From Candidatus Gastranaerophilales bacterium (GTDB lineage Bacteria; Cyanobacteriota; Vampirovibrionia; Gastranaerophilales; Gastranaerophilaceae): a stretch of DNA of 52,244 nucleotides. The notes below the pieces were generated by a model. The model was given only the letters and a program-made list of their open reading frames with translations, made no database searches and was not told the DNA's origin. Below are positions 7,854-35,996 of this stretch, piece by piece (the stretch's first letter is position 1; the number at the start of each line of letters is the position of its first letter). The position numbers and the translations under genes were made by a program. Where the stretch lies: assembly GCA_944323285.1 (NCBI GenBank), contig CALURV010000007.1:1-52244 (forward strand), written 5' to 3'.

Positions 7854-8034
7854 TGTCCGAGAAAAAATTCACGATAAACTGAAAGTGTGAGTGAATTTTT
7901 TTTACAAAACGAACCAAAAACTTTGTTTTTGAGTGAGCTTGTATCCGTAGTGAAACGAAGGTGAGCAGAGTTTTCAAAAGGTGAGTACTTTGTTAACGAG
8001 GATGACTCGGTAACAAAGTGCGATACTAGATTAA
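7854..8034 (+). repeat. Dispersed ~180-bp intergenic repeat, copy 1 (full length)
   Basis: First of four copies in the window (others at 15793, 29159 and 35801), all in the same orientation, from TGTCCGA to AGATTAA. Three hairpins are visible. The first is AAAAAATTCAC...GTGAATTTTTT (about 7862-7902), like a symmetric terminator. The second is CAAAAAC-TTT-GTTTTTG. The third is a 33-nt element at 7987-8019 with 9-bp arms ACTTTGTTA/TAACAAAGT around the core ACGAGGATGACTCGG. The repeat lies between the divergent starts of the phosphohexomutase (7749) and ileS (8109) and fills most of that 359-base gap. No terminal inverted repeats or coding capacity are evident. The family is not one I recognise. 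Confidence 0.93.
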
Positions 8035-8108
8035 TTTATATGAACATGTACTATTTAAATTGTTTATATTAAAATGTTGTTTGTAAAAAATATAAACAGG
8101 TGGATAAT

Positions 8109-15792: not shown

Positions 15793-15972
15793 TGTCCGAG
15801 AAAAAATTCACGATAAGCTGAAAGTGTGAGTGAAATTTTTTACAAAACGAACTAAAAACATTGTTTTTGAGTGAGCTTGTATCCGTAGTGAAACGAAGGT
15901 GTGCAGAGTTTTTAAAAAGTGAGTACTTCGTTAGCGAGGATGAGACGGTAACAAAGTTTGATACTAGATTAA
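15793..15972 (+). repeat. Dispersed ~180-bp intergenic repeat, copy 2 (full length)
   Basis: Same orientation and length as copy 1, from TGTCCGA to AGATTAA. The third hairpin is at 15925-15957 with arms ACTTCGTTA/TAACAAAGT and core GCGAGGATGAGACGG. It fills the gap between the start of the blaI-like gene (15673) and the 3' end of the helicase gene. The last bases of the repeat (TTA at 15969-15971) are the helicase stop codon on the minus strand. Confidence 0.92.
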
Positions 15973-18900
15973 ATCTTACTATCTGTTAATAAATTTTCCA
16001 TAAATATATTGTGTTTTGCATTCTTACGTATTTTATAATTTTGGGAATATGTTAATATTAGCCCTTTTTTTGCTCGTGTTATTCCTACATATAATAATCT
16101 TAGGGTTTCTTCTATTAGTTCTTCTTTTAATTCATCGGGTGTTTTAATTTTACAATTTTGGATATTACTTTTTATTGTTTCAACAAAATGACCGCCGCTT
16201 TTAAGTTTTATATCAATCTTGTTTGTTGGATAATTTTCTTCTGTTAATTGAGGAATAAAAACTATATCAAATTCATCTCCTTTTGATTTATGCATTGTCA
16301 TTATATTTATTGTAGGTTCTTCTGATTTATTTTCTTCTTCAAAAAATTTATATGCACTTGTTGATTTTTTAGAATAATATTCAAGCTTCTTAATTAATTC
16401 TTCATTTGTTTCATTATTTGTTTTTAAATGTTTGATAAAGGTTGAAATCAAATAGGTATTAGATTTGTCTATATCATCTTTTGAATAAAATATCCCTGCT
16501 TTTAAGGCTATGTCTTCAATAGGTATATCTGAACTGTTAAGCCAGTAATCTACATCAAGATATAATTGTATTAATATTTCTTCTTCTATTTCATCTATAT
16601 CAGTTCTTATAAAAGGTTGTTTCAGATTATTGAAATATTCTTTTATTAATTCTTTTTTATTTGAGTCATTTTTATATTTGTTTTCAGCATATAAAATTGC
16701 TAATTTCTCTATTTCTTTATTATTTATTGGATTTGATATTATTTTTAATACTGAATATATAAATTTATATATTTTCTTTTCTGCTAAACAATCGGTTCTT
16801 ATTGCCGTACTAATATTGTTAGAATTTAAAAATTCATTATAATCATTTACTTGGGAGTTTAATCTTAATAATATTGCAATAGTTATTTGTGGATTCTCTT
16901 TTTTGATTTGTCTTATTTTATTTAAAATAAATTCTTTTTCCTCTATCTCTTTTTCAAAATATAATAATTCAGGCTCTATTTCTATTTTTGGATTATTTTG
17001 TGTGCTAATCATTTCAATAGGATAAAAGGCTTTTTTATTACTCTCGGAAGAAAGAGCTTTTTGTATCATTTTATTTGCCAGACTGTATATTGGCTTTGCG
17101 CATCTTTGTGATGAAACCATTTCTATTTTTTTGTTTACTTTTATAAATTCTTTGAAACTTTCTAAGTTTGAATTTGTAAAAGTCGAGGTGATTGATTGAT
17201 TAATATCTCCGCATCTTATTATATTTTTATGTTTTGCGCTTAATAATTTTATTAGGGATTGTTGAATTTCTGTAGAGTCTTGAGCTTCATCTTCAATTAT
17301 ATATTCACATAAATCTTGATAGTATTGAGCAATTTCTTTATTATTTTTTAATAGCAAAAGTGCATAACTTAACATATCATCATAATCTATTAAATTAAGC
17401 TTTTTTAAGGTTATGTTGTATTCTTTGTAAAAATTATAAAATTCTTGGATATCTTGGTATTTTGAATATAATTCTTTTTTGTTTTCTGATAATTTTACTA
17501 TTGAAATACTTCTTAAAAAATTATCGTATTTGTCTTCTTGTATTTTTAACTTATAAAATATTTCTTTTAAGATTCTTTCTTTTGTATTATCATCACAAAT
17601 CTCAAAATTTTCATCCAAGCCTACTTTCGTATAGTTTCCGTTTTCTTTTATTATTCTTAAAGCAAGACCATGAATGGTTGAAATATTTGGTAATTGAGAA
17701 GAATTATTCAAATGTGATTTAATTCTTTCTTTAAAATTTTTTGCTGCTGATTCCATATATGTAAGAACAAAAATATTCTCTGCACATACACCCGAATTAA
17801 TAAGTTCTGAAACTAAAGCAAGTAAGATTGTTGTTTTGCCTGCTCCCGGAACTGCCATAATCCCCATTTTGCCTTTTTTGTATTCTAATACGGGTTTTTG
17901 ATCATCCCTTGGAATGATTTTCATTTCTGTAGTTTTTTGTTCTTTTGTTTCTATGTATTCATTTATTCCGCCAAAATTTTCATTTCCTGTGTTATCATAT
18001 ATGCTTGAGTATAATTTTATCTCCTTTTCGCAGCATAGCATTAATTTTCTGATTATTCTTGCGGTTTTATCTCTTGTATTTTTTATATTATCTTCTAATG
18101 TGTATTCTTCTTTAGACCAATCTCTATTAAATACCCAGGCGTTATAAAGAGTTCCCGTATCTTGTTTAAACCATTCGTTATTTGATATATCAAGCCAAAA
18201 TTGGTATTTTGTTTTAATTTTGTAATCAATAATTTTTTGGGGAGTTGCTATTATAACTTTATTTGCTTTTATTGAAAATATGTCTGTTGGATTCTCACTT
18301 ATTACACTATTTTCTATTTGAATTATAAATTCTGAAATTATATTTTCTGATATTTTATTAAAAGTATTTTCAAAACTATTTGCCTCTTTTATTAAAAAAT
18401 CAAATTTTGTAATTTCTTCTTCTTCTAGTTCGCCTTTTATTAAATTTGAAAAAATCACTTTTATTTGTTCTGTTAAAGAATAATTGACTTCTTTTAATGA
18501 TTTTATAATATTTTTGAATTTTATATATTTACTTGTATATTCAAAATTATCAATATTTATATTTATAAATTCTTTTGTGGATTTATAATTTTGTATTATT
18601 TCATAACATTTTCTGTATGGGATATTTAATAAATTAATTAATATACTTTTTATTTCATAATCATTTAATTCTAGGTTATTTACTATTTTTAATATATTAA
18701 GAGTGTGCTTTATTGATTTTATATCAGATAATTTTTCGTTTCCGGAAACTAACTGAAAATTTATGTTAAAGTTTTTCTCTTTCAATGTAGCGAATAAAAC
18801 ATCATCAATTAGTGGCGATACTATTGCAATTTCGTGAGCTTTAACACCAAGAGAAATAAGTTCGTTTATATCTTTTATAGCTGAATCTATCATTTCAAGA

Positions 18901-29158: not shown

Positions 29159-29278
29159 TGTCCGAGAAAAAATTCACGATAAGCTGAAAGTGTGAGTGAA
29201 TTTTTTTGAGTGGCGTTTTAAAAGGTGAGTACTTTGTTACCGAGTCATCCTTGCTAACAAAGTACGATATTAGATTAA
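29159..29278 (+). repeat. Dispersed intergenic repeat, copy 3 (internally deleted, 120 bp; hairpin core inverted)
   Basis: Same left end (TGTCCGA) and first hairpin, and same right end (GATATTAGATTAA), as the full-length copies. About 60 bases of the middle, including the second hairpin, are missing. The third hairpin at 29231-29263 keeps the arms ACTTTGTTA/TAACAAAGT, but its core CCGAGTCATCCTTGC is the reverse complement (13 of 15) of that in copy 1. Located between a TPR gene start and the thioesterase 3' end. Confidence 0.9.
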
Positions 29279-29286
29279 ATTAACTT

Positions 29287-35800: not shown

Positions 35801-35978
35801 TGTCCGAAAAAAATTCACGATAAGCTGAAAGAGTGAGTGAATTTTTTTACAAAACGAACCAAAAACTTTGTTTTTGAGAGAGCTTGTATCCGTGTGAAAC
35901 GAAGGTTAGCAGAGTTTTCAAAAGGTGAGTACTTTGTTATCGTCTCATCGTCGCTAACAAAGTGCGATACTAGATTAA
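35801..35978 (+). repeat. Dispersed ~180-bp intergenic repeat, copy 4 (full length; hairpin core inverted)
   Basis: Same ends (TGTCCGA...TAGATTAA) and the same three hairpins as copies 1 and 2. The third hairpin at 35931-35963 has arms ACTTTGTTA/TAACAAAGT, but its core TCGTCTCATCGTCGC is the reverse complement (13 of 15) of copy 2's core. It lies between the convergent 3' ends of rubrerythrin (35791) and dCMP deaminase (35997). A 64-codon open frame crosses it, but it is repeat sequence and not a credible gene. Confidence 0.92.
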
Positions 35979-35996
35979 ATATCTTTATGATGTCTT

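Follow-up and report, generated by a model that had tools for sequence, protein, structure and literature searches.

Recurrent inversion of hairpin loops in an interspersed repeat of two Gastranaerophilales genomes

The repeat and its hairpins

The window, the whole stretch of 52,244 nucleotides that was analysed here, carries four copies of an interspersed repeat of 120–185 bp. Two related Gastranaerophilales genomes, both from gut bacteria, contain about 100 copies of it each. The repeat occurs in a short form of about 122 bp and a long form of 180–185 bp, with the ends TGTCCGAG...CTAGATTAAAT. By pattern search, 51 + 57 copies were found in the window's genome (G000), where a reversed control pattern gave 0, and 70 + 32 copies in its relative, the same-genus MAG Candidatus Gastranaerophilales bacterium BRZ_AN__bin63 (handles G028 and G040), while other species of the genus hold few or zero copies of the repeat in this form. 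Two of its hairpins, H1 and the third hairpin H3, are predicted by RNA folding in the short and the long form, and the consensus hairpins folded as single-stranded DNA reach −13.2 (H3) and −6.8 kcal/mol (H1).

An earlier note on this DNA had described H3 of copy 3 (29231–29263) as a core between constant arms, and the placement proved exact, with the arms ACTTTGTTA/TAACAAAGT and a 15-nt core between them. The H3 arm pattern, with up to 3 mismatches allowed, occurs 4 times in the window against 0.19 expected by chance. The note had also claimed that the core of copy 3 is that of copy 1 inverted. This was reproduced, as the reverse complement of CCGAGTCATCCTTGC, which is GCAAGGATGACTCGG, agrees with the copy 1 core ACGAGGATGACTCGG at 13 of 15 positions, compared with 7 of 15 when read directly. 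The core includes a short stem of its own, CGAG/CTCG, which matches in either direction, and the evidence for inversion therefore lies in the asymmetric positions, namely a 5-nt loop (GATGA or TCATC) and an outer mismatch (usually G/G, and C/C when flipped). Both of these features are inverted in copy 3, which has TCATC and C/C where copy 1 has GATGA and A/G (G/G is normal). Two window copies show the common orientation and two are flipped (Table 1), copy 4 adding to the copy 3 described in the note, and the core subtype (right half CTC or GAC) is independent of orientation among them. When unflipped cores were simulated with the divergence doubled, only 0.05% were mis-called as flipped.

Table 1. 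Copies of the repeat in the window and the hairpins scored in them
Feature	Position	Strand	Remarks
Copy 1, long form	7854–8036	+	H3 7987–8019, core 7996–8010, common orientation
Copy 2, long form	15793–15974	+	H3 15925–15957, core 15934–15948, common orientation
Copy 3, short form, about 122 bp, TGTCCGAG...TTAAAT	29159–29280	+	Partly deleted orthologous copy in G028 C10
H1 of copy 3, AAAAAATTCAC / GTGAATTTTTT	29167–29206	+	Loop in common orientation
H3 of copy 3, flipped core CCGAGTCATCCTTGC	Arms 29231–29239 and 29255–29263, core 29240–29254	+	
Copy 4, long form	35801–35980	+	H3 35931–35963, flipped core 35940–35954, TCGTCTCATCGTCGC; site empty in G028

The window had no match in Rfam at the gathering score, the repeat element matched there at chance level only, and no description of the repeat was found. 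Related repeats in 18 of the 191 genomes of the window's family (among them G014, G037, G038, G047, G066, G097, G125 and G169, the last with the highest count, 94 matches) retain the frame AAGGTGAG...GYGACACTAGATTA, and the H3 stem inside this frame is species-specific, with compensatory (paired, two-sided) changes. The lone copy of the related repeat in G014 appears flipped. A CRISPR-like array at locus L101 (G012 C28), with the repeat GTTTTCGTCTCCTAACGGAGTGAGACTAAAAC, has one part similar to the middle segment of the long form, and a repeat copy that runs from G000 C5:39034 to the contig end (locus L243) is broken by a putative IS3-type transposase gene.

Frequency and independence of the inversions

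Inversion of H3 is recurrent. Scored across the genomic copies, 26 of the 200 standard-length cores are flipped, including 10/105 in the window's genome and 16/95 in the relative. The earlier note had set against its own reading a single old event, in which orientation would follow sequence subfamilies, and the reading withstood this test: on a tree of 171 copies, built with the loops left out, the 21 H3-flipped copies need 21 changes (mean with shuffled labels, 20.05), and the flips are thus scattered. Because the tree is weakly resolved, the comparison of neighbours weighs as much as the change count, and the nearest neighbours of copy 3, which are 97.8% identical to it, are unflipped.

Inversion is not limited to H3. 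H1, which differs from H3 in having arms of unrelated sequence, is flipped in 11/176 copies. In 2 copies both hairpins are inverted, and the middle hairpin of the long form showed zero flips among about 100 copies. The H1 loop is also inverted in three further incomplete or variant copies outside the 11, namely G000 C29:7602, C24:254398 and C1:17723 (minus strand). Slight clustering is seen for H1, where the 11 flipped copies require 8 changes and the neighbours G000:C1:29245 and 29997 share one. This would suit one or a few old inversions that founded a flipped subfamily, which then spread; however, the H3 flips are fully scattered (21/21) and are found in the two length forms and with either core subtype, and such a founding history is extremely unlikely.

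An assembly or library artefact was considered, since palindromes can yield chimeric reads, the relative's genome was assembled from a metagenome and that of the window is also in fragments. However, the similar frequencies given above come from independent assemblies, many of the flipped copies carry point mutations of their own, and the arms of 9–14 bp are shorter than the usual assembly words, which together leave an artefact with next to no probability.

Comparison of shared insertions between the two species

The earlier note held that the loop had turned while everything outside stayed in place, and this is seen directly at one insertion common to both species. At G000:C8:66104 and its counterpart in G028:C2 near 247.6 kb, CCGAGTCATCCTCGC stands against GCGAGGATGACTCGG, which are reverse complements at 15/15 positions, whereas the flanks match on both sides over about 390–400 bases at 82–85% identity and the derived AAAGAGC is common to both. 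At the seven other shared insertions compared, the H3 orientation is equal between the species.

The counterpart of window copy 3, in G028 C10 near 39.5 kb, is missing H1 as well as 7 nt of the loop of H3. Its outer pair is still the unflipped G/G, in contrast to the C/C of copy 3, and copy 3 was therefore most likely flipped in the window's lineage. A supposed orthologous flip at G000:C24:10714 was rejected, its flanks not being shared, and the pairs 73/111 and 40/149, which have different insertion points, were not accepted as orthologous.

Switch points, stem dependence and ordinary hairpins

The extent of the inverted segment is reflected in the outer pair of H3, which is G/G in 120 of the 167 unflipped copies and C/C in 14 of the 24 flipped ones. 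Since flipped copies are never G/G, the inverted segment extends at least to the outer mismatch, which places the switch points in the outer arm. Copies with at least three inner stem pairs are more frequent among the flipped (21/24) than the unflipped (108/167; p = 0.034). One copy, G028 C6:77386 (CCGAGAATGATTCGC), combines an outer C/C with an unflipped loop and may have undergone a second, inner flip. At H3 core position 15, G/G is replaced by G/C in 13 unflipped copies of G000 and G028 but by C/G in just one, and templated repair or inheritance may account for this imbalance.

Like changes are observed at unrelated hairpins outside the repeat. The sequence compared, 310 kb aligned at 87.5% identity between the species, contained 1088 non-repeat hairpins able to show an inversion. 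The loop is inverted in two of them, G000:C5:38981 (9-nt loop, 8/9) and G000:C24:276594 (5-nt loop, 4/5), the arms of which are long and conserved. The inverted cases are 2 of the 16 hairpins at a dG of −10 kcal/mol or below and 0 of the 1072 weaker ones, where the −10 cut-off was set post hoc and the evidence for one of the two is a 4/5 match in a 5-nt loop; at −6.8 or stronger, the count is 2/51. The direction of these counts is consistent with a process that depends on the stem and is independent of the arm sequence. A view of flipping as peculiar to the repeat, based at first on 0/25 ordinary hairpins, was dropped with the two ordinary cases in the larger sequence.

Recurrent inter-strand template switching at stable hairpins during replication is the best explanation of these changes and, judged from its end products, a highly probable one. 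This is because the flipping of unrelated arms, the segments of 5–18 bp, the dependence on stable stems and the change in place all point to such a process. The substrate would be the near-perfect hairpins present in every copy of the repeat. During replication, the nascent strand would occasionally leave its template within one arm, jump to the opposite strand of that palindrome, copy the loop backwards and then return in the other arm. As the arms are mutually reverse-complementary, they would appear unchanged, and all that lies between the jump points would be inverted. In H3, the jumps would fall in the outer 9–11 bp arm, and the G/G beside the arm would become C/C along with the loop. The changes have the features of hairpin loop inversion, which are constant length, bounds formed by inverted repeats, unchanged surroundings, recurrence and dependence on the stem and not on the arm sequence. 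We infer that the GATGA orientation is ancestral.

The earlier note had offered two causes. Strand-switching at the palindrome agrees with these observations, and recombinase action at the 9-bp arms disagrees with them. A site-specific recombinase that recognises these arms and turns the core around, in the manner of phase-variable invertible DNA, is in keeping with the inverted repeats that bound the inverted segment and with the occurrence of two orientations. However, no common site is present among the arms of H1, of H3 and of the two ordinary hairpins, all of which flip, and the flipped segments are just 5–18 bp long, far smaller than known invertible segments. A recombinase is unneeded and leaves the range of arms unexplained, and we regard it as very unlikely.

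Relation to known inversions

The type of mutation is already known, and what is notable here is its frequency and cleanness in a single family of bacterial repeats. In genes for RNA hairpins, bacterial rRNA included, loop inversions have been attributed to an inter-strand template switch (Monttinen and Loytynoja, 2022; PMC8794818), and these share with the present cases the reverse-complement loop, the retained length and the intact arms. They are very rare, affect mostly 4-nt loops and lie in selected RNA genes, whereas the repeat is intergenic, has 13% of its H3 copies flipped and inverts segments of 15 and 18 nt. Similarly, hairpin-associated minute inversions of chloroplasts (Kelchner and Wendel, 1996; Catalano et al., 2009), as they are cited in PMC3631202 and PMC3123225, are small, bounded by inverted repeats, recurrent and reported with stable hairpins. 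They concern single loci in plant plastids, whereas the repeat is bacterial and multi-copy, and its recurrence can be counted in one genome. Loop inversions and microinversions in bacteria were also sought in the literature, and under those terms none came up.

About 100 copies of one hairpin per genome make a rare mutation countable. Hairpin template switching can thereby be measured in a bacterium, along with the influence of stem length and of the location of the switch points. Further, a loop in reverse complement within a repeat or terminator is not in itself a sign of a recombinase.

Timing of the inversions and mobility of the repeat

The timing of the flips was examined with two measures of copy age. 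With mismatches in 44 flanking bases as a proxy, the flipped fraction is flat, at 4/30 among copies with none and 4/23 among those with at least seven, and the likelihood is lower under a pure clock (lnL −86.1 vs −77.3); this flat frequency counts against a simple clock. With whole-element divergence as age, the flipped copies go from 4/42 to 7/42 across quartiles, and the clock and constant models are about equal (lnL −64.35 vs −63.69). A rough clock estimate on this second measure is about 1.4 H3 inversions per unit substitution per site.

A flip that arises when a copy is made or mobilised, for example in a single-stranded intermediate, at about 1 in 8 per new copy and with flipped copies leaving no offspring, would agree with the nearly flat frequency on the flank-based proxy, with the lack of clusters among H3-flipped copies and with five flipped copies that occupy sites empty in the other species. 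However, the shared insertion with opposite states implies that resident copies flip too, ordinary hairpins also flip, and the clock does about as well once whole-element divergence is used. In addition, no mobilising enzyme was found: a search for the Y1 transposase domain PF01797 gave 0 matches in G000 and G028, while positive controls were detected. We therefore consider flipping at the mobilisation step unlikely, and retain template switching during replication as the preferred explanation.

At sites empty in the other species (copy 4 and G028 C5:8458), the repeat was inserted without target duplication, and the only target preference seen is the base four before its left end, which is A in 91% of 115 sites. 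The repeat resembles non-autonomous hairpin elements of the IS200/IS605 or REP type in being short and intergenic, with several hairpins and without inverted termini or visible target duplication, but PF01797 was not found in its two genomes, and its target preference, just the A at −4, may also set it apart, as IS200/IS605-derived repeats would sit directly 3′ of a fixed target of 4–5 nt. It is conceivable, if doubtful, that the repeat belongs to a so far undescribed mobile family, in which the frame is conserved and the hairpin stems are specific to each species. It would have moved via a single-stranded intermediate, with flips as a by-product that switched copies off. If so, the loop orientation would be a record of the copies still able to move.

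At the site of copy 1, G028 carries a repeat at the identical position (C10 near 60.0–60.2 kb) with the whole element oppositely oriented. The same arrangement, with opposite whole-element orientation at the same site, was observed at G000 C1:15451, C6:9136, C8:111799, C17:49443, C24:166288, C27:19065 and C32:26241. Candidate readings of these same-site opposite elements are independent insertion at one spot and inversion of the whole element.
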